Positions 558 to 20,715 of a DNA stretch of 20,715 nt are shown here, in pieces. Source of the stretch: a virus. The notes below the pieces were generated by a model that was not told where the DNA came from, searched no databases, and saw nothing but the letters and a program-made list of their open reading frames with translations. Position 1 is the first letter of the stretch, and the number at the start of each line of letters is the position of its first letter. Location of the stretch: IMG/VR virus record IMGVR_UViG_3300031772_006809, positions 1 to 20,715 of that record. One strand, written 5' to 3'. The position numbers and the translations under genes are program-made.

Positions 558-1361
558 TCATCGTTTCGCCCTCTTCAGTCTGCGCGTGATCTCCTGAGCC
601 GCAGCCGCATCGCCGCCTTGAAGGCGAAAACAGAGTTCACGATGCCAGCAGGCACGGCAGGTCGGGTGGCTCCGCAAGAATGGAGCCTCGATCAGCCGTC
701 CCTCGACACACGCGACCTGCGCGACTTCCGCGTTGGCCAGCAGCTTGCGCCACATAGCCTCGTCGTAGGTGATCAGGTAGGTCTTGTACTCTTGCGTGTC
801 CTTGTCCTCGAACAGCAAGAACCCGTCCATCTTGATCGGGCACGCCCGCAGGTAGGTCAGCAACTGCCCGACGTACTTAGGGTGCAGCTTCGCCAGGCTG
901 TAGAGGTTCGAGCGCCCGTCACCTGGGGGCGGCAGTCGCTTGAAACCGCCGCTTGAGATACTCTTCAGGTCGCCCAGGAGTAGCTCGTTCTTGAGATCGG
1001 TAGGACGCCGGACGATGAGATCTGCTGTCCCGCCGACCATCAAGGGGTCGCGCATCGTCAGCTTGATATCCCACGCCCGAAGCATTCCCTGCTCAGCGAA
1101 GTAGGCAGTCCAGCGGATGTGCATAGACTTGCCGTTGTCGAAAATGCGCCCCAGGCGGGCCTCCACGGCAGACTTGTGCCCCAGAAGGCCAAACTGGATG
1201 CTACGCTGGCACGGATCGACCGCGCCGGACGGGTGGAGATGGCAGCTTGGTGCCCACCAATCCTCCGGCTGGCGCTTACTGAAGAACTCGTCCATAACCG
1301 GCGTCAGCCAGTCGCTCGCCGCGAGGCTGCGCATCAGGCCGAGCAAGCCGCCCTCAGCCAT
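558..1361 (-). CDS. Cas4/RecB-like PD-(D/E)XK nuclease with Fe-S cysteines
   Basis: This 267 aa protein is probably a DNA exonuclease of the Cas4/RecB/AddB type. The nuclease core is visible as D114 in GGTADLIV, then D131-x-K133 in LLLGDLKSI, then the QxxxY motif at Q166-Y170. Four cysteines, C51 in DPCQR and C235, C238 and C244 near the C-terminus, match the spacing of the Fe-S cluster known from Cas4 and AddB, in which one Cys precedes the nuclease core and three follow it. The ATG at 1361 overlaps the stop of the upstream nuclease gene by 8 bases (ATGGCTGA), and AAGGAG lies upstream. It sits downstream of recA, so a role in end resection for recombination or in host DNA breakdown is inferred. 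There are no adjacent CRISPR genes, so a role in spacer acquisition is not supported. Confidence 0.85.
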   Translation of the reverse strand: MAEGGLLGLMRSLAASDWLTPVMDEFFSKRQPEDWWAPSCHLHPSGAVDPCQRSIQFGLLGHKSAVEARLGRIFDNGKSMHIRWTAYFAEQGMLRAWDIKLTMRDPLMVGGTADLIVRRPTDLKNELLLGDLKSISSGGFKRLPPPGDGRSNLYSLAKLHPKYVGQLLTYLRACPIKMDGFLLFEDKDTQEYKTYLITYDEAMWRKLLANAEVAQVACVEGRLIEAPFLRSHPTCRACWHRELCFRLQGGDAAAAQEITRRLKRAKR

Positions 1362-1695
1362 TCCAGCCGTTCTCCTTTGCGCGCTGCCTTCGCTCGCGCA
1401 GCCTATCCTCCAGTGCCCCCGCGAAGAAGGGCTTGAGTCCGTACTCGATCAGCGCGCCCTCGTCCGCCATCATCTCCGCGTCAATGCGAAGGGTATGTAT
1501 CCCGAACGTCTCCCACAGCCAGTCATCCCGCCGAATATCCCGTGTAGTCCAGTGGCTCGGCCCGTCGTATTCGACGGCACAGTGGAGTTCCGGCAGGTAG
1601 ATATCCAAAGAGTACACCCCTGCCGGTTGCTCGGCGACCGTTACGTAGCCGAGATCACTGATGAGACTAATCAGTCTCTGTTGCGGTTTCGTCAT
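1354..1695 (-). CDS. Small DUF559/Vsr-like endonuclease-fold protein
   Basis: With the start at the ATG 1693-1695 the product is 113 aa. An upstream in-frame start at 1785 would add 30 Arg/Pro-rich residues lying wholly inside recA and is less likely. The core resembles the DUF559/Vsr branch of restriction-endonuclease folds: LDIYLPEL with D31, then AVEYDGPSHW with E42 and D44, then RRDDWLWETFGIHTLRI, the usual strand-helix-strand end of this family. Catalytic residues are probably D31 and E42. It overlaps the 3' end of recA by 29 bases and the start of the Cas4-like gene by 8 bases, so it is translationally embedded in the recombination cassette. It could nick mismatches, resolve junctions or be a stand-alone homing-type nuclease; the sequence does not decide between these. 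Confidence 0.75.
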   Translation of the reverse strand: MTKPQQRLISLISDLGYVTVAEQPAGVYSLDIYLPELHCAVEYDGPSHWTTRDIRRDDWLWETFGIHTLRIDAEMMADEGALIEYGLKPFFAGALEDRLRERRQRAKENGWNG

Positions 1696-2722
1696 CTCCG
1701 TCGGCGGCGGCTCCTGCAGGCGTCGTGCCTTCGAGGGCCTCGCGGACGGCGTCCCAGAGATGGGCTTTGACCTTCTCATTCTCATCTAGCCAAGCGATCA
1801 GCTTGGCCCTCCCGAAGAACTTTTGATCCCCGAACTCGTAGTGTGGGGGCCTCCCCTTGAGCAGCCCCAGGTCGACAGCGACGTCGACTAGCCCTGCCGT
1901 CAGCTCTAGGTGCCCGCTCTTGAAGTAGAACGGGATGGCACAGTGCTGGAAGGGCGGGGCCTGCTTGTTCTTTTCTGTGCGGAAGCCCATGTTGTATCCG
2001 ATGCGGCGCTGATCCTCACCCTTGCGCGGTGACTTCTCTGTTATCCAGCCCTCGCGGGTCACGCGGATGATACCCCACGCCCAGTATTGCTGCCCTACGC
2101 CTCCAGGCAGGGTCTCCCCCGCGCCCAGGCGCTGGCCACCAATCGACTGGCGTGTCTGGTTCGTGAACAAGATCACGCTGCGGGTGTTGGCATCGAGTAG
2201 GCGTCGACACCCCGCGTTGATCAGACGGGCCTGCCCGCCAACCACGATCTTCTCCATATCCTCTTCCGCCTCGGCGGTAGGCACCATCGCAGCGAGGCTG
2301 TCCACTACGATCAGATCGACTGCCTCCCTGGCTAGATCTAGGACGATGTCGAATGCGTCCTCTCCCCTCCCAGGCTGCGCCACCAGCAAGTGTGCAGTGT
2401 TGATGCCGACCTTACTGAACCACTCCTCGTTGTAGGACTTCTCCGCGTCGATGTAGGCCGCCGTCAAGTTCGCCGCCTGTGCCGCCTTGATCGCTAGCTG
2501 AGTCAAGTAGGTCTTGCCCACGGCGTAGCGCCCTATCACCAGGTAGAAGCGCCCGCGCGCGAGCCCCCCGCCGAGCATGTCGTCCAGCGGGGGAACCCCG
2601 AGCTTGATCTCCTTGAGCTTCAGTGACGAGTCGTTCCCGAACAGGAGGACGCTCTTCTTCCTCTTCTTGTTCACAGTCTCTCGTATCTCACGAAGCCGGT
2701 CGGTCGACTTTACCTCGGCCAT
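1667..2722 (-). CDS. recA: RecA/UvsX-like recombinase
   Basis: This 351 aa ATPase forms filaments on ssDNA and catalyses strand exchange in phage recombination and recombination-dependent replication. Walker A is GRYAVGKT at residues 64-71. The segment YIDAEKSYNEEW at 90-101 holds the catalytic Glu (E94). Walker B is DLIVVDSLAAMVP with D141. FTNQTRQSIGG around 186-196 is the RecA sensor/L2 start. The C-terminus is short and acidic (DGDDETATETD), like the regulatory tail of RecA proteins. Walker A differs from the bacterial GPESSGKT, so this is a divergent phage type closer to UvsX-like proteins. AAGGAAGG precedes the ATG at 2722. The start overlaps the zinc-ribbon gene by 35 bases. Confidence 0.93.
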   Translation of the reverse strand: MAEVKSTDRLREIRETVNKKRKKSVLLFGNDSSLKLKEIKLGVPPLDDMLGGGLARGRFYLVIGRYAVGKTYLTQLAIKAAQAANLTAAYIDAEKSYNEEWFSKVGINTAHLLVAQPGRGEDAFDIVLDLAREAVDLIVVDSLAAMVPTAEAEEDMEKIVVGGQARLINAGCRRLLDANTRSVILFTNQTRQSIGGQRLGAGETLPGGVGQQYWAWGIIRVTREGWITEKSPRKGEDQRRIGYNMGFRTEKNKQAPPFQHCAIPFYFKSGHLELTAGLVDVAVDLGLLKGRPPHYEFGDQKFFGRAKLIAWLDENEKVKAHLWDAVREALEGTTPAGAAADGDDETATETD

Positions 2723-4694: not shown

Positions 4695-4723
4695 AGCATA
4701 AGCCTTGCTCGCCAACAAGTCAA
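4695..4723 (-). promoter_or_regulatory. Candidate sigma-70 promoter for the sigma-like gene
   Basis: On the minus strand TTGACT (4718-4723) and TATGCT (4695-4700) are separated by exactly 17 bases. This matches 5 of 6 and 4 of 6 consensus positions. It lies in the 48-base gap between the primase stop and the sigma-like start, one of the few gaps in this module. Transcription would begin near 4688 and give a short leader that holds the AAGGAGG site. Confidence 0.55.
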
Positions 4724-5610
4724 GCATCTGGCACCCACAAAGTCGACGCCTTTTCTAGGGATTCGGCGATTTCGCTGCACGTGCACTCGCAGGGGTCTTT
4801 GTGTGGCAACGCAGCCACACCCGCCCTGCCCCGCAGCAACTTGGTGCCCCGCTTCGCCGCGTCGTGCCCCGCCTTGTCCTGGTCGAAGCACAGCGTAACC
4901 CGCAGGCTTCGTGCGTTGACCCGTTCGGCCTGGGCTTTGCTCATGGACATCCCCAGGATGGCCGCCGCTGTGCGGAAGCCGCACTGGTGCATCCACATGG
5001 CGTCCAAGGGGCCTTCCACCAAGATCACAGGTGCGTCCTGCAACCAGTCGATGTGATCCCAGCCGAACAGGATGAGCGACTTCGGCATATGAGGGGTGTA
5101 CTCGTACTTCGGGTAGCCCTCCGGAACCGGCGGCACGTGCCGATAGATCAGGCCAACGGTATCTCCCTCCCAGATGACAGGGATGACAACCGCCTGCCGC
5201 GCCAAGTCCCAGCCCACCTTCCAGGCCCTGAGTGTGTCAGGGGTAAAGCCCCGCTCGATCATGTAGTGGTGTGTCTTGCCCTCGATGTAGAAGAACTCCG
5301 GCGGGCCGACGACTTCCTTCTCCTCCCCCACCGTCAGGATGGGCGATTCTGGCATGGTGCTCACATTGGACTCGCTGTCGATCCAGTATTGTGCAGTCTT
5401 GTAGCTGCACCCAAGGATGCGCTGCACCAACGTGAGCAAGCCACCCCCGCCGCAGCCGGTGTAGCAAGTCCAGGCACCCGTGACCGTGTTAATGGCAAAG
5501 CTGGGGCGGTGGTCGTCATGCAAAGGACAGAGCCCGATCAGCTCGTTGTCGGACTCGCTCGTGATGTCGAGCCCTAGCCGCCTGACTGCCTGGCGAACGT
5601 TAATCTGCAT
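4720..5610 (-). CDS. DNA primase with CHC2 zinc finger and TOPRIM domain
   Basis: This 296 aa protein makes RNA primers for phage replication. The zinc finger is C28-P-L-H31 with C49 and C53, in the order known for DnaG and T7 gp4 primases (CPLHDDHRPSF, then WTCYTGC). The TOPRIM domain follows: E199 and D203 in VILVEGPLDAMWM, then D243 and D245 in LCFDQDKAG. It lacks a fused helicase, and the DnaB-type helicase is encoded just upstream with an 11-base overlap (ATGCAGATTAA), so the two probably work as a pair. The ATG at 5610 has GGAGGAG about 10 bases upstream. It is shorter than bacterial DnaG, with no clear helicase-binding C-terminal domain, as in many phage primases. Confidence 0.9.
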   Translation of the reverse strand: MQINVRQAVRRLGLDITSESDNELIGLCPLHDDHRPSFAINTVTGAWTCYTGCGGGGLLTLVQRILGCSYKTAQYWIDSESNVSTMPESPILTVGEEKEVVGPPEFFYIEGKTHHYMIERGFTPDTLRAWKVGWDLARQAVVIPVIWEGDTVGLIYRHVPPVPEGYPKYEYTPHMPKSLILFGWDHIDWLQDAPVILVEGPLDAMWMHQCGFRTAAAILGMSMSKAQAERVNARSLRVTLCFDQDKAGHDAAKRGTKLLRGRAGVAALPHKDPCECTCSEIAESLEKASTLWVPDA

Positions 5611-6898
5611 CGCGCGACATCTCCTCCCGCAGCTCCTCCGCAGATATCTGCCGGATATCCCCGATGTCTACATCCCAGTAAAGGTGCACACGGATCGTAA
5701 TCGGCTCGCCGTCCCGCGTCTTAGGCACCTTTAGGTAGCGCATGTGCTGCTGACGCGGCGGCATCGCCAAAGCGAAAACGCGGTCGCTGTCCTCCATCAA
5801 GGACTTACCATAGGCACCGTGCTGGAGATCGGGCTCCGCACCAGTCGCCTTCATTGCCTCGCGGACGACCTGCATGCCGACGATGATCACCATCCCGTTT
5901 CGCTGGGCCAGCCCTTTTAGCATTTGACCAGCCTCGGCGATGACCTTCCACTGCTCATCCTTGGTGCCACCAATGAGATGGAAGCCGTCGATCACCAGCA
6001 TGTCAGGTCGGTGCGCAGCAACGAGCGCAGCAATATCCTTGAGAGCAAACTTGCCTGATGGAGTATCAGTGCTGTCCACCGTAACCCAGCGGTGCTCACC
6101 ACTCAAGGCTCCCAGCCACTTGTCGTAGAGTTCGAGATCAATCGAGCCGTTTATCAGCGCCTTGTTGCTGATCGTCACGCCGTTAAGCTGTGCTAGAATG
6201 GAGTCCATACGGAATTCGGTCTTTCGCTTGCTCATCTCCGGCGAGATGTAAAGGATACGCCTTCCGTTGTTGTAGGCAACGCAAGCGAAGAAGTTTAACA
6301 ACCACGACTTGCCAATGGTGCTTCGGCCTATGATCGTGATCAACTCGGCGGGTTCCCAGCCAACGCCGGTCTCGTCGAACAGCGGCAGGCCCGTCGGTAT
6401 CCCGATGATCTCTCCGCGCGCCCGCATCTCGCTGCGGCCCTTCACATCTGCAAGGCGCTCCCTCGCGCCCGCATCGCTGTAGCCCACATGCTCGGACGCC
6501 CCCGCCTGCAGGTGGGAGAGCCCCGTGATCACCTTCTCGATGGCGTCCTCGGGCTCACCATACCACAGCTCGGTCATCTGCTCCTGCATCGTGAACTGCC
6601 CCTTGCGGATCAGTTCCTGCTTCCGTAGCGTCCGCGCCAGGGAATCGACATCGGTGACGGTCTTGTCCGGCGTGAACTGGTAGATCGTCAGCAACTCGCT
6701 ATCGCTCGGAGGCAGTTCCGTCTCCAAGATGCGCCGCTCGATGTAGGTAAAGAGATCGCGGTAGGCAGGCTGGGAGAACGAATCCGCCGAGACGTTTGCA
6801 CGCCGGAGTTTTGTCAGGTCGCTCGTCGTCCGGAGTGCGGAGAGAAGAAGCCGCTCAACTACTTCAGGAGCGACTTGTGTGGGCGGAAGGTTGTCCAA
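5600..6898 (-). CDS. dnaB: Replicative DnaB-type helicase
   Basis: This 432 aa protein is the likely fork helicase. The C-terminal RecA-like ATPase shows the entry motif GIPTGLPLFDE at about 166-176, Walker A GRSTIGKS at 191-198, ISPEMSK at 218-224, Walker B MLVIDGFHLI with D304, GMQV at 341-344 where DnaB has its sensor motif, and the late AYGKSLMEDSDRV segment. The N-terminal 130 residues are helical, as in the DnaB collar. I chose the TTG at 6896-6898 because GGAGG precedes it at 6 bases; this gives a 35-base overlap with the gene before it. The primase follows with an 11-base overlap. No recognisable loader is nearby, although the unknown gene upstream is a candidate by position. Confidence 0.9.
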   Translation of the reverse strand: MDNLPPTQVAPEVVERLLLSALRTTSDLTKLRRANVSADSFSQPAYRDLFTYIERRILETELPPSDSELLTIYQFTPDKTVTDVDSLARTLRKQELIRKGQFTMQEQMTELWYGEPEDAIEKVITGLSHLQAGASEHVGYSDAGARERLADVKGRSEMRARGEIIGIPTGLPLFDETGVGWEPAELITIIGRSTIGKSWLLNFFACVAYNNGRRILYISPEMSKRKTEFRMDSILAQLNGVTISNKALINGSIDLELYDKWLGALSGEHRWVTVDSTDTPSGKFALKDIAALVAAHRPDMLVIDGFHLIGGTKDEQWKVIAEAGQMLKGLAQRNGMVIIVGMQVVREAMKATGAEPDLQHGAYGKSLMEDSDRVFALAMPPRQQHMRYLKVPKTRDGEPITIRVHLYWDVDIGDIRQISAEELREEMSRDAD

Positions 6899-8056: not shown

Positions 8057-8395
8057 TTAGATGTGCAAGTCCCTCGGCATCTCAGGGGTGCCAGGAACGA
8101 TAAGCCTCGGGCTCACGCGGTGCGTGCCGTGCTTCCTGATGTAAAAGCGCATGGGCTGCAAGCCCGCTTGCTTGATCACCCACAGATTGATGCAGGAGAC
8201 GCAGTAGGGATTGAACTCCCCCTTCGGGCCGTCGAAGTCCACCGACGGATCGATAGCCATCAGTGGCCCCATGTGCCCGTGCTCGCAGCGCACGTATCCC
8301 TCTTCGTCTTGGCCAGGGCGCTCGCCCAGTTCAGGGTGAGCCTCTCGCTCGCGCAGCCCTTCCGCGACTAGCTTGTCAACGATGTCGTCACTCAT
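8057..8395 (-). CDS. Small Cys/His protein, possible zinc ribbon
   Basis: I place the start at the ATG 8393-8395, which follows GGGGAGACC and overlaps the polymerase stop by 8 bases (ATGAGTGA); a longer reading inside polA is less likely. The 112 aa product carries C37, H39 and H41 (RCEHGH) and C65/C68 (YCVSC), a plausible split zinc site, with an acidic stretch between them. The first 30 residues are charged and helical. The family is not recognised. Its close coupling to the polymerase gene suggests a role in replication, but nothing in the sequence shows which. Confidence 0.68.
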   Translation of the reverse strand: MSDDIVDKLVAEGLREREAHPELGERPGQDEEGYVRCEHGHMGPLMAIDPSVDFDGPKGEFNPYCVSCINLWVIKQAGLQPMRFYIRKHGTHRVSPRLIVPGTPEMPRDLHI

Positions 8396-11015
8396 GTTGG
8401 TCTCCCCAGCAGCGCGTGATCTCAACATCCACCTTCAGAGGAACAGGGAACCATATTGAGGAGTCCAGTTCCAGCAGAGGCAGATGCTCCATAACCTGCT
8501 TGATCATCGACACGTAGTAGTCGACCACGTCCTCCCGAATCTCGAACAGAAGCGCGTCATGAATCCAGGCCACTATCCGGACTTCGTCACGTGGTAGTAT
8601 ACCAGACAATCCTAGCGTGATGAGAACTTCCGGCGTGTAGATTCGCCCCATACTCCAGTAGGTGAAGTCGCTAGCGGTGGCTTGCACCGGCGAGTTGATT
8701 GCTTGCCGCTCCGTGTAGCCCCACACCGACCGATCCGACGAGTCGATATCTGGTAGGTGCCTCATGCGCCCGAGTAATGACTCGACCTGCTTGTCTTCGC
8801 GCACCAGCCTGCGCTGCAGTTCGTGCCCTTCCACCACGCCTGGGTGCTGCTCGAAGAACACACGCCGGTCTTCCTCCGCCTCCGGCAGAGTCAGCCTGAC
8901 GCCGTAGTTGCGGAAGGCGTATCCCTGATACTTGGGTGCACCCATCCCATAGAGGTAGCCGAAGTGCCGCGCCTTCACACGGTTGCGCTGCTCCTTCGTG
9001 ACCTGTTCGGGCGGTATCCCTAGAACGTCCGCCGCGCCCATGCGGTGGGGATCACCCCGAGGATCGTCGTCGGGCATAGCGAACGTCCGCAGGAAGGGCT
9101 CGTCATCCCACATCGCTGCCGCAACCCGCAACTCGATCTGGGCGTAGTCAAGCGACACTAGCTTGTAGCCAGGTGGTGCGCAGATCACCGACCGGACGCG
9201 CGGGTCACGCGCCGTCTGCTGGACGTTGGGCTTCTCCGCCGACGCACGACCCGTCACGGTTCCCCACGGATTGTAGTAGGGGTAGAGCCGATGCGTGTCG
9301 GGATCGATCAGCTTCGGCCAGCCCTTCACCTTCTTGGTCTTGGTGCCTACCTGCTCCGTCCCCAGATACGTATCCAACAGCTTCTGGACTTCCTTGATGT
9401 CGAGATAGAGGTCAATGGCCGGATACTCTTCACGATCGTAGGCCAGCTTCTTTTCGGAGACTACAGGCCGCTTAGTCTTCTCCGTCCGCTCCGTGATCGG
9501 AACGCCCTGGCCACTCGGCGGCGGGCCGTAAATCCAGTTGATAAGGAAGGCCTGGTTGCGCAGTTGCTCCAGCTTGACGCCGAACTCCTCGAACATGCGC
9601 TGCTGCAGTACACCTAGCAACTTCCGCAGGTCGTTCGCGTGCTCGGGCAGTCGGTCGGGGTCGACGTAGACTCCGTTCAGCTCCATCTCGATGAGCGCAC
9701 GATAAGCGGGTAGCAACACCATGTTGTGCAGTCGCGCCAGCTTAGGGTGCTCGAGTAGGCGTCCGTATTGCAGCTTATCCAAGCGGTGCGTCCAGACCGC
9801 GTCCTGCGCGTTGTAGTCCAGAAGGTCGCCGAGAGACAACGGGTCGCCCCGTATCGTGCACGGGCCGATGCCCTCCTTGAAGTCAACGTCCGCCGCGTAG
9901 TTGGGTGCGCCAAGCTCGTCGCGGACAATCTGTTTCAAGTGGTGTCCCTTAGGCTCGTTCTCGTTCAGTAGGTGGGAGATCACCTTGGTGTCGCGGGGAT
10001 GCTTAGCCATCTTCCAGATATCGAATCCCCTGAGCCGCGCCAACCAGCGAAGGTCGAACTTCGTCGCGTGGTTTGTGACCTGCTTCTCATAGAGCAGGCG
10101 GAAGATCTCCTCGTAGAGTGCATCGAGTGCATCCCCGATCCAGGGCGAGTAAGGGTGGTCAAGCGGAATCGCCCATCCGGTCTTGCCGTCTCCGCACAAG
10201 GCGATGCTAAGGATACGTGCCCCTGGCCGATAGTCGACCAGGCCGGTCGTCTCAATGTCCGCCGCGATCACGGCTGCCTGCCCGAGCGCGTCGAGGCACT
10301 CCATCGCGGTATCCGCGTCTAGGACGTGTCGGGTCACGATGTCCTGAGCAGGAACCTCACCCTTGATCAGCCGAACGAACTTCTCGAGGTCAGCCCAGAA
10401 TCTATCTAGTCTGCGCTGATCCCGCATCACCCAAGAGGGGTGAAAGGTCGGGAGGAAGGTGCGATCCTCGTCCTCATAGTAGATCTCTCCGCCCCGCGCC
10501 GAGGTGATCTTCCCCTTCCCTGTCAAGGCCCTAAGGGCCTCGTCGCCCAGGAGGATAACAAAGCGAGGGTTGACCTCCCGCAGCTCTGCCTGCAAGTAGG
10601 GATTGCAGGCCTTGACCTCTTTGGCGGTCGGCGGGATGCGCTTCCCGTCTGATGTCTTGAGTTTGCACTTGAGGACGTTTGACAGGTAGACTTGATCCGG
10701 AGGCAGCCCCACCTCCTCTAGCGCTTTGCGTAGGAACTGGCCGACTGGCCCCACCCAGACACGCCCTGCCTTGTCCTCATCAGGCCCAGGTGACTCGCCG
10801 ATCACGGCGACGTCGCAGGGGACTGGCCCCTCGCCCATGATGCAAACGTGCTTGCACCCGTCCCACAGCGGGCAACGACGGCAGGAGGGATTCCCGTCCA
10901 TGGTCGCCGCCAGCTCGGACATGTCCAGAACGCGAGACCGCCGAGTCCGAGCCTGCTTCGCCCTGAACTCGTTGGTATCGAATAGGGAGGGGGCTTCGAA
11001 TTCGTTTTTGCGCAC
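8388..11015 (-). CDS. polA: Uracil-DNA glycosylase / A-family DNA polymerase fusion
   Basis: This 875 aa protein joins two enzymes. Residues about 40-215 are a family-4 UDG: C45/C48, C117 and C137 fit the four Fe-S ligands, GESPGPDED (73-81) is motif 1, SNVLKC carries the usual Asn, and FHPSW (H192) is motif 2. Residues about 245-415 are a DEDDy proofreading exonuclease (D253/E255, D321, Y401/D405). The polymerase follows: motif A SLDYAQIELR (D623), motif B with R677, K681, F685 and Y689, and motif C IHDALLFE (D820). No 5' nuclease domain is present. The site equal to E. coli F762 is Phe, which surveys of viral PolA link to virulent phages. Motif C has HDA where HDE is usual. It starts at GTG 11013-11015 behind GAGGGG, 13 bases after the DUF932 gene. 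Confidence 0.93.
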   Translation of the reverse strand: MRKNEFEAPSLFDTNEFRAKQARTRRSRVLDMSELAATMDGNPSCRRCPLWDGCKHVCIMGEGPVPCDVAVIGESPGPDEDKAGRVWVGPVGQFLRKALEEVGLPPDQVYLSNVLKCKLKTSDGKRIPPTAKEVKACNPYLQAELREVNPRFVILLGDEALRALTGKGKITSARGGEIYYEDEDRTFLPTFHPSWVMRDQRRLDRFWADLEKFVRLIKGEVPAQDIVTRHVLDADTAMECLDALGQAAVIAADIETTGLVDYRPGARILSIALCGDGKTGWAIPLDHPYSPWIGDALDALYEEIFRLLYEKQVTNHATKFDLRWLARLRGFDIWKMAKHPRDTKVISHLLNENEPKGHHLKQIVRDELGAPNYAADVDFKEGIGPCTIRGDPLSLGDLLDYNAQDAVWTHRLDKLQYGRLLEHPKLARLHNMVLLPAYRALIEMELNGVYVDPDRLPEHANDLRKLLGVLQQRMFEEFGVKLEQLRNQAFLINWIYGPPPSGQGVPITERTEKTKRPVVSEKKLAYDREEYPAIDLYLDIKEVQKLLDTYLGTEQVGTKTKKVKGWPKLIDPDTHRLYPYYNPWGTVTGRASAEKPNVQQTARDPRVRSVICAPPGYKLVSLDYAQIELRVAAAMWDDEPFLRTFAMPDDDPRGDPHRMGAADVLGIPPEQVTKEQRNRVKARHFGYLYGMGAPKYQGYAFRNYGVRLTLPEAEEDRRVFFEQHPGVVEGHELQRRLVREDKQVESLLGRMRHLPDIDSSDRSVWGYTERQAINSPVQATASDFTYWSMGRIYTPEVLITLGLSGILPRDEVRIVAWIHDALLFEIREDVVDYYVSMIKQVMEHLPLLELDSSIWFPVPLKVDVEITRCWGDQHE

Positions 11016-12400: not shown

Positions 12401-12471
12401 CCGGCCCTGTGTGGCCGGTAACGCCCCCTCCAGCACAGAATGTGGGGGTGGGTGCCTCTCTTAGACATTCT
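12401..12471 (-). other. Two inverted repeats in the junction gap
   Basis: The 93-base gap between the lysin stop and the 84 aa gene holds two inverted repeats. One is a 6-bp stem CCGGCC/GGCCGG (12401-12406 and 12413-12418) with a 6-base loop. The other is a 7-bp repeat AGAATGT/ACATTCT (12437-12443 and 12465-12471) around 21 bases, the outer arm touching the lysin stop codon. Neither is followed by a T-run in the direction of transcription, so neither is an ordinary intrinsic terminator. They may be RNA folds that attenuate transcription or protect the 3' end of the tail mRNA. Confidence 0.35.
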
Positions 12472-13822
12472 ACACGACACAGGGCACGTAGAAGGCGGGG
12501 TTGCGCCGAAAGGCGCAGGCCTCGTCGATACACCCACACAGAAGGTCTGGCAAGTAAGCCATTCGTACCTCGAAGTGAAGGTGGATGCCCGTGGAGTATC
12601 CGGTCGTGCCGGTGAGCCCGATACTCGTCGTCCAATCAATCCACGTATTCTGTGTCACAAAGACCTGGCTAAGGTGCGCGTAGGCGGTCTCGATCATCGC
12701 GGTGTAGCGGTTATCTGCATGGCGCAGGACGACGTGGTTGCCCCAAGAATCATCATATCCCACGCGGGCTACATAAACCTTGGTGGTGCCGTCCGCCCAG
12801 CCCGCCGCCGGATAGATGCTCATATTCACACCGAAGCAGTCCAGGTCTACTCCCGAGTGGCCGCCGCTACAGCGTCCGCCCGAACAGTCTGGCAACGCCC
12901 CCGTGCAATAGTAGGCACGAAAGGACTCTCCGTAGCGCTGGCTCACGGCAAAACTGCCCTGTAGCGGACATTGCCACACTAGGCCGGATGGCGCGCCGCC
13001 GCCGCCGCCTGAGCACGGCCCGCCCTCGTTAGGCATCGGAGGCATAGGCCTGGGCGAAGGCGTATCCGACGGCAGCAGAGGCATGGGCCGCACAGACGTT
13101 GTGTTTGCGGGTAGCTCTGGCATAGGACTCGGCTCGCAGTTAGGATCAACTGGTGATGGAGGAGTGCTCCCCTGCAGCCAAGCCTTAACAGAGTCAGCCA
13201 TGTTAAGAAAGCAGTTTTCTATGTTCTGGATGCGGTATTCGGAGCAAGGGATGCAGCCTGGAGGAGAGCAAGGGTGCCCGCTGCCCGTTGCAACGTTACA
13301 GACGTTCGCTCGCCAGTCGCCGTTCTCGACCCAGTAGCGGTTGATTGCATCGCGAATGGGCGGCAACGCGATCAAGAGATGGGTAGACGGATCATGAAGT
13401 TCGTCAGGCACGCACATCCACGCGCTTGCCTGCCCCCCACACGTGTTTAGCTGGAACGGGCCGTGAGAGGTGTAGGCCAAACCATAGTAGTGCTCTTGCG
13501 CCTTTTGATACGGGGTCTTCGTCCCGCCGTCGCAGATAGGTGAGCACATATCACAGTTACCGCACTCGCCACAAGAGCAGCAGTCACAGACATACGCGCC
13601 GTCCGCGTCTACCCGCCAGCCGCTTTCCGCCGCGCCGATGGCCAGGTAGGTGATGATCTTGTCAGCCGTGCCTCCGATCGGGTTTGCAACAGGGTAGGCT
13701 ACATGACCTGCCGAACGCACGAAGTCATACAAGGCAATCCACCAGTCCCACGGTATGGAGTAGCTACCGAATGTGACCGGAGACTGTGCCTGCGCCGTTA
13801 GCTGAGGGAAGTCAATCGGCAT
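12470..13822 (-). CDS. Two-domain wall hydrolase: lysozyme-like plus M23 endopeptidase
   Basis: From the ATG at 13820-13822 the protein is 450 aa. Residues about 40-180 look like a transglycosylase/lysozyme fold: AIGAAESGW with catalytic E66, and later SHGPFQLN at 119-126. Between these lies an insert with eight Cys in residues 79-97. A linker rich in Pro and Met (about 215-275) leads to an M23 metallopeptidase with zinc ligands H322 and D326 (GGHSGVDLD), then H383 (AYAHL) and H414/H416 (GIHLHFEV). It should cut both glycan and peptide bonds of peptidoglycan. Its place among tail genes suggests it is carried on the virion to open the wall during DNA entry, not a holin-paired endolysin. No signal peptide is evident. 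A GTG start at 13858 is possible. It overlaps the upstream gene by 11 bases. Confidence 0.85.
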   Translation of the reverse strand: MPIDFPQLTAQAQSPVTFGSYSIPWDWWIALYDFVRSAGHVAYPVANPIGGTADKIITYLAIGAAESGWRVDADGAYVCDCCSCGECGNCDMCSPICDGGTKTPYQKAQEHYYGLAYTSHGPFQLNTCGGQASAWMCVPDELHDPSTHLLIALPPIRDAINRYWVENGDWRANVCNVATGSGHPCSPPGCIPCSEYRIQNIENCFLNMADSVKAWLQGSTPPSPVDPNCEPSPMPELPANTTSVRPMPLLPSDTPSPRPMPPMPNEGGPCSGGGGGAPSGLVWQCPLQGSFAVSQRYGESFRAYYCTGALPDCSGGRCSGGHSGVDLDCFGVNMSIYPAAGWADGTTKVYVARVGYDDSWGNHVVLRHADNRYTAMIETAYAHLSQVFVTQNTWIDWTTSIGLTGTTGYSTGIHLHFEVRMAYLPDLLCGCIDEACAFRRNPAFYVPCVV

Positions 13823-14543
13823 CGGGAAACGTCCGCACCAGGGGAATATTGACCACACGGCCCCGAAAGGTCGTTGTCTCTGGGTTCTTCGGGTCTACTA
13901 GAAGAGCACACCCACCGGCGGGGGGCTCGAGATAGAGGTTTCCACCTAGTATCGGCTCGAGGACGTCATCGTAGCTCACGTCGGCCACCGTCACCTCTTG
14001 GCCGTTCGGCCTATGCAGCATAGAGGAGGCAGCCCCATCCGCTAGCCTCACACGAACCTCGAAGTGAAGGTGCATCCCTGTCCACGTATCGCCACAACTT
14101 GCGGAGTAGCCGTTGCAGATCTCCCCGATAGGCTGGTAGAAATCGATCCAGGCTCCCATCACCACGTTGGGCGCAATATTCATCAAGTGGGAGTACTCCG
14201 TCTCTATCATATAGCCGAAGCCTGGGTGGATATGCTGCAGGATAACGTAGTTGCCGTGGTGGGCGTCGTAGGCCGTCTTCTTGACCAGGGCGTTCATTTG
14301 CCACTTCAGATTATTCACCCCTGGGCTCCATAGGCACCATGTCGCAGAGAAAACGCTCAGATCAGTCCCACTGATGTAGGTAAAATCAATTCCGGTGTGC
14401 CCGCCGCATGTGACATAGCCAGGCGCGCCGAAGTAGTTGTTGGTGTGGTACTTGTAGTAAACGGGCTGCTGCAGCTCGAATACCCCAGGAGAGGGAAACT
14501 GGATAGGGAAGCGATCGGTCATCGCGGCAAAGGTGTGTATCAA
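13812..14543 (-). CDS. M23 family peptidoglycan endopeptidase
   Basis: This 243 aa protein is a single M23 (lysostaphin-type) metallopeptidase. The ligands are all in place: H49 and D53 (GGHTGIDF), H119 (EYSHL), and H158/H160 (GMHLHFEV). It is clearly related to the M23 domain of the next gene, sharing HTGID/HSGVD, MIET, GNYVILQH/GNHVVLRH and HLHFEV blocks, so the pair looks like a tandem duplication. I accept the TTG at 14541-14543 because GGAGG stands 9 bases before it; the ATG at 14522 lacks a ribosome site. The C-terminal 75 residues after the peptidase (ADVSYDDVLEPILGG, then PAGGCALL) may be a small attachment domain to the tail. It probably acts during DNA entry. Confidence 0.88.
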   Translation of the reverse strand: MIHTFAAMTDRFPIQFPSPGVFELQQPVYYKYHTNNYFGAPGYVTCGGHTGIDFTYISGTDLSVFSATWCLWSPGVNNLKWQMNALVKKTAYDAHHGNYVILQHIHPGFGYMIETEYSHLMNIAPNVVMGAWIDFYQPIGEICNGYSASCGDTWTGMHLHFEVRVRLADGAASSMLHRPNGQEVTVADVSYDDVLEPILGGNLYLEPPAGGCALLVDPKNPETTTFRGRVVNIPLVRTFPDAD

Positions 14544-17301: not shown

Positions 17302-17766
17302 TTAGGTCGGCGGCCAGGCGATGACCGCAAACGTCAGGGAGTAGTCCCAGAACGTCCGGCCCGCTGTCTTCTCTACTTGGCCGCCCATATACACGGTCTT
17401 GTAGGTGATAACCTGCCCGTCTCGCTTCCAGTAAGTCAGCATAACCGTATACTGCGGGTTCGTTGCCGCGTTGTAGGCCACCATCAAGTCCTTCCATGAC
17501 TTGCGGATGCTCTCCAGCAACTGCCACACCGTCACCAGGCCGTAGCCCTGGGTCACGTCCTCAATAATGCCCTTGAGCGTGATGGTCTGTGCCATCTCTC
17601 CGAAGTCGATGGCGAACGCGCGGGGCGTTCCGTTGGTGTAGACGCCAGGCATCGGCATGACCGAGATCGGACGGCTTAACTGGTGAACGGACTGCTCCGT
17701 GCGCAGCCAGAACTGCGGGAAGGTTCCAGGGGTGATCAGAACAACCTCGTAGCCCTCAGCAGTCAT
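17302..17766 (-). CDS. Tail/baseplate protein, second of a tandem related pair
   Basis: This 154 aa protein is related to its upstream neighbour. Shared blocks are SVMPMPGVYTNGTPRAFAIDFG against NPMPMVNKATTGEPVAFVLDLG, then TLKGIIED against RLEGIVYD, and the ends WDYSLTFAVIAWPP against WSFVMLLNVIRWG. Both are beta-rich with one central helix (LLESIRKSWKDLM here). Position between tape measure and hub points to a distal tail, tail tip or baseplate ring component. In myophages this slot often holds a LysM-type baseplate protein, in siphophages a Dit protein; I cannot decide. It ends 13 bases before the hub start. Confidence 0.65.
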   Translation of the reverse strand: MTAEGYEVVLITPGTFPQFWLRTEQSVHQLSRPISVMPMPGVYTNGTPRAFAIDFGEMAQTITLKGIIEDVTQGYGLVTVWQLLESIRKSWKDLMVAYNAATNPQYTVMLTYWKRDGQVITYKTVYMGGQVEKTAGRTFWDYSLTFAVIAWPPT

Positions 17767-17767
17767 T

Positions 17768-18265
17768 CTAGCCCCACCTTATCACGTTCAGTAGCATCAC
17801 GAAGCTCCAATAGGGTTTTGCACCCACACGGGTCAGGGTTAGCTCCGCCAGTAGAACCGTGAAACTCACCCACGACGGGTTGTCCATCGCCAGGATCAGT
17901 GTCGAGGCGTTCACGGGCTCCAGACCCATATCGTAGTTCTTCCAGCTCGTCCGGAAGATGGTCTCGATCTCCGGCCATGATGCCCACGTATCGTTCTTGT
18001 CTATGTCTTCGGGCACGAAGCCCACCTCTGACTGGCTATCGTAGACGATGCCCTCCAGCCGGATACCCTCGCTCATCATGCCGAGGTCAAGGACGAAGGC
18101 AACCGGCTCGCCGGTCGTGGCCTTGTTAACCATCGGCATGGGATTGACGGAGGGGTTGCGGTTAGGAACGATCTGAATCCTCTCGACGTGCAGCCGCCGC
18201 GTTACCCATCCGCCATACACTCCTGGGGTCTGGAGTTTAATGTCTACGCCGGATAGGTCGGCCAT
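17768..18265 (-). CDS. Tail/baseplate protein, first of a tandem related pair
   Basis: This 165 aa protein is the longer member of the related pair. A beta-rich first half (VDIKLQTPGVYGGWVTRRLHVERIQIV) leads to the shared NPMPMV, EPVAFVLDLG and IRLEGIVYD blocks, a helix (WPEIETIFRTSWKNYDMGLE), and a beta-rich end with KPYWSFVMLLNVIRWG. GGAAGG stands 6 bases before its ATG, and that ATG shares one base with the tape measure stop (TAATG). Function is inferred only from its place between tape measure and hub: a ring or adaptor protein at the lower end of the tail. Confidence 0.65.
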   Translation of the reverse strand: MADLSGVDIKLQTPGVYGGWVTRRLHVERIQIVPNRNPSVNPMPMVNKATTGEPVAFVLDLGMMSEGIRLEGIVYDSQSEVGFVPEDIDKNDTWASWPEIETIFRTSWKNYDMGLEPVNASTLILAMDNPSWVSFTVLLAELTLTRVGAKPYWSFVMLLNVIRWG

Positions 18266-19939: not shown

Positions 19940-20431
19940 TTATGCTACCCCTGGATTGCCACTCAGGGCGATCCAGTCCATCCAGTCTTCTACCGCCTGC
20001 AACCCGTCTGGGCCGCCGACGAATCCTCGCTCTTTGTGAATCAACCCCTGCTCGGGGTCATACTTCCACTCAGGGTGGGCCGCCAGCCAGTCCGTCCAGA
20101 TTCTCTCGACTCGCTCGCACCAGGCTCGTTGCCGCGCGAACGGCAGGGCTGTAATATCGTATTCCAGGCCGTCTCTGTTCTTAGCCTCCCTGTGGTAGCC
20201 GTCCTGTGCGCCCTGGATGCGTTCTCGAACCTCATCGTCGGGTATAACCCGAACCGTAGGATCACCCAGATACTGGTCGCTCGGGTCATGGAACCAGCGA
20301 AGGGCCTTGACCAGCTCGGCGCAAACCGCGTCCGCGACCACCTGAGGCACGGTGGCGTCTGCCTCCGTGTCTACCTGGTAGGTCTCGAGGTCAAAATCCT
20401 CGGGAAATACCTGTCCCCAGATATAGAACAC
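19940..20431 (-). CDS. Unknown 163 aa protein upstream of the tail chaperones
   Basis: This protein starts at GTG 20429-20431, behind GAGGGG, overlapping the stop of the NUMOD3 gene. It begins with an acidic segment (PEDFDLETYQVDTEADATVP) followed by helix, is rich in Trp (WFHD, RIWTDWL, WKYD, EDWMDWI), and ends ALSGNPGVA. The position, directly before the tail chaperones, usually holds a tail tube or tail completion protein, but the composition does not look like a tube protein. I recognise no family. It ends 11 bases before the chaperone start. Confidence 0.62.
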   Translation of the reverse strand: MFYIWGQVFPEDFDLETYQVDTEADATVPQVVADAVCAELVKALRWFHDPSDQYLGDPTVRVIPDDEVRERIQGAQDGYHREAKNRDGLEYDITALPFARQRAWCERVERIWTDWLAAHPEWKYDPEQGLIHKERGFVGGPDGLQAVEDWMDWIALSGNPGVA

Positions 20432-20715
20432 TAAGCCGCCCCTCGCTTTGTTGCACTGATTTTCGCGCGGGTCTCAAGACTAAGCGTGCGACCCGTAAGC
20501 GCCGCGCTAACCCGCGCGCGGGATTCGGCTGAGTGCACACGACCCCGACTAGCGGCTCCTATTTTTGCCAGGGCTGCGGGGGTGTGCCTGCGGCCTAGCC
20601 AACAGGTGGCCCTCGGTATCCCCTTGCCACCCTCTCCGTTCCTGTTGCCCAGCATCGCGGCGCTGATCGAGGCCCGATGCTTGGCGGACAAAGGTCGGCC
20701 CGTGTTCTTGCCCTT
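20431..20715 (-). CDS. NUMOD3-repeat protein, 5' end outside window
   Basis: The frame is open to the right edge, adding eight upstream codons (KGKNTGRP) before the first possible internal start, a TTG at 20689-20691, so this is the C-terminal part of a longer gene. At least four repeats of the NUMOD3 type (G-[RK]-x-x-[ST]-x-E/A-x-[RK]-x-x-I/V-S/G-x-A) are seen: GRPLSAKHRASISAAMLG, GRRHTPAALAKIGAASRG, GRVHSAESRARVSAALTG and GRTLSLETRAKISATKRG. NUMOD3 is the DNA-binding repeat found with GIY-YIG and HNH homing endonucleases. The catalytic part, if any, lies outside the window. The gene is freestanding between structural genes and overlaps the start of its neighbour by 3 bases, as for an invaded intergenic site. 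Confidence 0.78.
   Translation of the reverse strand, partial: KGKNTGRPLSAKHRASISAAMLGNRNGEGGKGIPRATCWLGRRHTPAALAKIGAASRGRVHSAESRARVSAALTGRTLSLETRAKISATKRGAA

Follow-up and report, generated by a model that had tools for sequence, protein, structure and literature searches.

A uracil-DNA glycosylase domain with an altered active-site loop on a proofreading family-A phage DNA polymerase

Results

Gene and domain architecture

The stretch of DNA analysed here (the window), 20,715 bases long, is an entire virus fragment from IMG/VR. Genes for RecA, a Cas4-type exonuclease, a primase, a DnaB-like helicase and a DNA polymerase all lie on one strand, and a 110-kb relative is collinear with the window. 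The polymerase gene encodes 875 aa from a GTG start, its reading frame running from 11015 to 8388, and joins a uracil-DNA glycosylase (UDG), a DEDD exonuclease and a family-A polymerase in a single frame. The features of the locus are as follows.

558..1361, minus strand, Cas4-type exonuclease (phrog_1990, phrog_1706)
1667..2722, minus strand, RecA-like recombinase (Pfam RecA, 7e-43), in the same replication region as the polymerase
4720..5610, minus strand, DnaG-type primase with Zn ribbon and Toprim (domain match)
5600..6898, minus strand, DnaB-like replicative helicase (domain match; phrog_19)
8388..11015, minus strand, UDG-exonuclease-PolA fusion gene
8391..9305, minus strand, family-A polymerase palm/fingers, aa 571-875 (Pfam DNA_pol_A; Klenow fold match)
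9741..10334, minus strand, DEDDy 3'-5' exonuclease domain, aa 228-425 (Pfam PF01612; residues invariant in alignment)
10368..10895, minus strand, UDG-fold domain, aa 41-216 (Pfam UDG; AF2; structural match to family-4 UDG)
10434..10442, minus strand, UDG motif 2, HPS, aa 192-194 (H192 corresponds to TthUDGa H155)
10620..10664, minus strand, active-site loop KLKTSDGKRIPP, aa 118-132 (exceeds the family-4 loop in length and has nothing equivalent to N89; similar to the UdgX R-loop but for the missing His)
10773..10799, minus strand, UDG motif 1, GESPGPDED, aa 73-81 (E74, S75 and E80, aligned to TthUDGa E41/G42/E47)

All three domains scored above the curated Pfam cut-offs: UDG at aa 61-210 (1.6e-29), the 3'-5' exonuclease (PF01612) at aa 231-412 (8e-6) and DNA_pol_A at aa 508-872 (8e-60). 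The polymerase residues D623, K681 and H819/D820 were present, and the exonuclease residues D253, E255, D321, Y401 and D405 were invariant in the alignment, so that motifs A, B and C and the DEDDy residues of a proofreading family-A polymerase are all in place. AF2 modelled the full-length protein with a pLDDT of 88.9 and a pTM of 0.85. A fold search with this model returned Klenow-type chains and was uninformative on the UDG part; hence the UDG domain was modelled separately (pLDDT 97.0, pTM 0.92). Its best structural match was the family-4 UDG of S. tokodaii (VIA Z 27.1, rmsd 1.3, 173 residues), with UdgX nearly equal (Z 25.7, rmsd 1.9, 175 residues), and the Klenow fold was matched by aa 223-872 (Z 34.2, rmsd 2.7). 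Pfam, the conserved residues and AF2 thus agree with an earlier sequence-only reading, which had placed a UDG, a DEDDy exonuclease and PolA in one gene.

The 110-kb viral contig carries an 82% identical homologue of the fusion protein. Domain order is the same in the closest relatives, L001 (82% identity), L036 (81%) and MW202455 (34.5% over 94% of the length). No near DNA match for the window was found in the phage collection, and no plasmid place covered 80% of the fusion protein.

Several other features of the window were observed. A small gene at 1354-1785, with a weak DUF559 match below the cut-off, overlaps the RecA gene. At 12470-14543 lie two adjacent genes, the first encoding an M23 peptidase, which are apparent paralogues and both match a single gene of the relative. 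Two small neighbouring genes at 17302-18265, about 25% identical when compared via the relative's copies, are probably a duplication, and NUMOD3 motifs at the edge (20431-20691) suggest a homing-endonuclease gene.

The uracil pocket and the active-site loop

The UDG domain has all four Fe-S cysteines of family 4 (C45, C48, C117 and C137), as had been claimed. A fifth cysteine, in VCIMG (aa 58; window 10842-10844), is conserved in the window and in relatives L003, L037, L038 and L043. In another fusion clade (L171, L173, L179, L181, L187 and L189) the third Fe-S cysteine is replaced by His (TNLVKH or TNLIKH); UdgX likewise has KH there.

The pocket of TthUDGa is formed by E41, G42, E47, F54, N80 and H155, and the water is positioned by N89 (PMC5387724). 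On alignment, six of these seven positions were matched in the window, by E74, S75, E80, W87, N113 and H192. The sequence-only reading had named E74, D79 and H192 as catalytic; E74 and H192 stand, the counterpart of E47 is E80 and not D79, and the N89 equivalent is missing. The Ser of motif 1 occupies the family-4 Ala/Gly position, so that the clade to which the window belongs (the window clade) has GESPG where family 4 is defined by GE(A/G)PG (PMC10359453). An R aligns with N89; the loop alignment is uncertain here, but the loop holds no Asn at all. This Asn is lost in the window clade and few other fusions. In TthUDGa, N89A lowers k2/Km about 7-fold and H155S about 2500-fold (PMC5387724).

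In UdgX the R-loop (KRRIH) sits at the same place, and H109 takes over the role of N89 (PMC10359453). The window clade has GKRIPP or GKRVPP without the His, and GESPG instead of the UdgX motif GEQPG. The NCBI UDG_fam4 cut-off of 125.3 bits was missed by three clade members (112.6 for the window, 101.1 and 102.5) and passed by six of the seven other fusions tested. The UdgX model (TIGR03914) outscored the family-4 model in the window clade (136 against 113 bits for the window) and in none of those seven. Because the window scores below the family-4 cut-off and, at 136.2 bits, also below the UdgX cut-off of 189.95 bits, the label "family 4" describes a structural resemblance and not clean membership; the earlier assignment holds for the fold, and fails on the score, the missing N89 and GESPG. 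Changing UdgX H109 to A, S, G, Q, C or K confers conventional UDG activity (PMC10359453), and a UdgX-like loop without the His is therefore compatible with ordinary excision. The loop is the sole new element of the window clade; the UDG-exonuclease-PolA architecture was already known.

Selection on the UDG domain

The window was compared with L001 and L030, which are 77-81% identical to it in the UDG domain. dN/dS was 0.12-0.13 for the UDG domain, 0.056-0.057 for the exonuclease and 0.14-0.15 for the palm/fingers, figures that are approximate because dS is about 1. Judged by these ratios, the UDG domain of the window clade is not decaying and is under purifying selection. The pocket residues were invariant across three distinct sequences of the clade. 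UDG distances correlated moderately with polymerase distances (rho 0.39), as against 0.76 for the exonuclease and polymerase.

Distribution and decay of the pocket

A UDG domain was matched in 88 GenBank phage records and, among the matches listed, most were annotated as polymerase. We sampled 122 alignable fusions from IMG/VR and GenBank. The six pocket residues were kept in 85 of the 122, a sample biased towards intact domains because it was partly drawn with UDG queries, and 79 of those 85 also kept N89. On a FastTree tree of the exonuclease and polymerase columns (128 rows; the direction of change is unrooted), the label intact or degenerate switched 12 times, at least 11 of them on well-supported branches. 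These changes are probably mostly losses with the domain retained, loss being the simpler reading. Motif 1 is broken in SPO1, LysYB1, Pseudomonas PMBT14 and Serratia phages, and much of the pocket is lost in Gordonia, Streptomyces and Curtobacterium phages.

Intact UDG domains are thus common among phage polymerases, and decay of the pocket with retention of the domain is recurrent. The sequence-only reading had considered an intact UDG odd on a phage polymerase; the survey says otherwise, and SPO1 itself has lost the pocket residues. Hosts of the relatives include Pseudomonas, Serratia, Streptomyces and Rhizobium besides Thermus, so that the hot-habitat explanation offered earlier finds no support. 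The UDG-exonuclease-PolA protein is a widespread phage replicase.

Neighbouring nucleotide-metabolism genes

The sequence-only reading had proposed searching for the fusion in other phages together with dUTPase or base-modification genes; most of the sampled fusions adjoin thymidylate-synthase-like and dCMP-deaminase genes. Where at least 6 kb of upstream DNA was available, most fusions adjoined a cluster encoding thymidylate kinase, MazG or dUTPase, a protein of an unnamed family, a thymidylate-synthase-like protein of divergent sequence, and dCMP deaminase. A ThyA-like neighbour was found for 32 of 43 intact fusions, 28 of 30 degenerate ones and 5 of 15 PolA without UDG. Pfam gives the cluster's ThyA-like protein a score of only about 28 bits (L003 3676-4509, L005 6214-7056, L004 4649-5530); since ThyX also occurs in MW202455, the gene may encode a pyrimidine hydroxymethylase and not a thymidylate synthase. 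The unnamed family (phrog_34294/phrog_13667; no Pfam match) adjoins the ThyA-like gene in most UDG-PolA phages (L005 5429-6217, L004 3591-4652, L003 2909-3679).

ThyA, ThyX, trimeric dUTPase and dCMP deaminase were not found in the window or in three relatives (20.7, 109.9, 38.1 and 29.2 kb; all fragments), the dUTPase result being weak because the search also missed the annotated dUTPase gene of a relative. The earlier statement that the window has no other base-modification gene is borne out for uracil and thymine, and on the same four fragmentary contigs we set aside the idea that the window phage modifies its DNA with uracil or hydroxymethyluracil. A phage dUTPase as the cause of pocket decay was also rejected: the dUTPase model was derived from decayed clades, and intact loci carry a weakly MazG-like gene instead. 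Among the ORFs scanned, neither the window nor the 110-kb relative yielded an AP endonuclease family. In the latter (G001), genes for an NT5C-type 5'-nucleotidase and a dATP/dGTP diphosphohydrolase lie close together (57299-57820 and 59340-59621), and unusual nucleotide-pool control is possible there.

Discussion

On balance, our preferred reading is that the UDG module of this replicase binds uracil, probably excising it slowly, and also acts as a structural component. The pocket residues and the selection on them suggest uracil binding and slow excision; recurrent decay with the domain retained suggests a second, structural role. At the fork, in single-stranded or freshly synthesised DNA, the UDG domain would flip uracil, arising by deamination of C or misincorporation of dUMP, into its pocket and would hydrolyse the glycosidic bond without UdgX-type cross-linking. 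With the water-positioning Asn replaced, excision would probably proceed more slowly than in standard family-4 enzymes. The resulting abasic site would then pass to host base-excision repair or to recombination, a RecA gene being nearby, and the domain may in addition hold DNA or serve as a structural part of the replicase. Against excision, no AP endonuclease was seen in the scanned ORFs, and excision lacking a repair partner could harm the phage. The missing N89 equivalent, the Ser in motif 1, the score below the family-4 cut-off and the moderate UDG-polymerase distance correlation also count against this reading. In many relatives catalysis is dispensable, as repeated decay of the pocket shows. 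The results support the part of the sequence-only reading in which a proofreading family-A polymerase, related to the SPO1 type, carries a uracil-binding UDG domain that is apparently functional.

Excision ahead of the fork would create a worse lesion than the uracil itself. This counts for a domain that senses uracil and does not excise it, binding template uracil and stalling or slowing the polymerase as do the read-ahead pockets of archaeal family-B enzymes, with the altered loop blocking hydrolysis. Loss of the water-positioning Asn has left the binding residues E74, N113 and H192 in place, and the structure of the phiLo polymerase, which has the same architecture, is titled "modified template". 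However, loss of N89 by itself only weakly lowers TthUDGa catalysis, and H192, the main leaving-group residue, is kept although pure binding would not strictly require it; we regard such a sensor as unlikely. A related proposal, which we hold to be doubtful, is that the UdgX-like loop without the cross-linking His turns the window clade's domain, on a replicative polymerase, into a sensor of uracil or into an excision module that is slow and coupled to the fork, distinct from both family 4 and UdgX.

It is likewise improbable that the domain is purely structural, its fold holding DNA or another part of the replisome for processivity and its pocket an evolutionary residue. The 11-12 or so changes of pocket state across the polymerase tree, through which the domain persists, and its retention in SPO1 and LysYB1 despite a broken motif 1, would fit, and a role in processivity has been suggested for phages (PMC5135824). 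The pocket residues are nevertheless invariant in the three distinct window-clade sequences and kept in most sampled fusions. Far less probable still is a role of the UDG in destroying host or competitor DNA that contains uracil, or in policing DNA made during base-modified replication. Many fusions lie in the cluster with divergent ThyA-like, dCMP deaminase and MazG/dUTPase genes, and SPO1 has a dUMP hydroxymethylase near its polymerase, but the four window-clade contigs, all fragments, show no ThyA, ThyX, dUTPase or dCMP deaminase, and the cluster accompanies degenerate pockets no less often than intact ones. For the attack on host DNA raised by the sequence-only reading we found no evidence.

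Both processivity and repair have been proposed for the uracil glycosylase on phage replicases. Related polymerases in the survey form natural pairs, one pocket intact and the other decayed, and the window clade changes solely the water-positioning residue and its loop; together these make the question of role directly testable.

Comparison with known systems

The family-A polymerase of Thermus phage phiLo has a solved structure (PDB 9QHS, released March 2026), for which our literature search found no paper. Like the window protein it carries a UDG with HPS and an intact motif 1 (GEAPG in phiLo); it differs in being 1142 aa long, its UDG is about 32% identical to that of the window over 174 columns, and the window clade has GESPG and a longer loop. 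An N-terminal UDG is described on the polymerases of the Bacillus phages SPO1 and Shbh1 (PMC5135824), which share the UDG, exonuclease and polymerase with the window. The SPO1 polymerase has, however, lost motif 1 (QENPF) and lacks the Fe-S cysteines. Pseudomonas phage PaBG, of the Lupandier group and a jumbo phage lineage, has a DNA polymerase I described as a single protein that unites UDG, 3'-5' exonuclease and polymerase, its UDG modelled on 1ui0 (PMC7412058); by that description it has the same three-part architecture.

Among the stand-alone enzymes, the family-4 UDGs (TthUDGa, TM0511 and S. tokodaii) resemble the window domain in fold (Z 26-27), in the four cysteines and in the equivalents of N80, E47 and H155, whereas the window has Ser in motif 1, Trp for F54, no N89 equivalent, a score below the NCBI cut-off and a fused polymerase. 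UdgX of M. smegmatis shares with the window clade the longer loop, in which GKR occupies the same position, and is set apart from it by the cross-linking His109, by GEQPG and by a model cut-off above the window's score.
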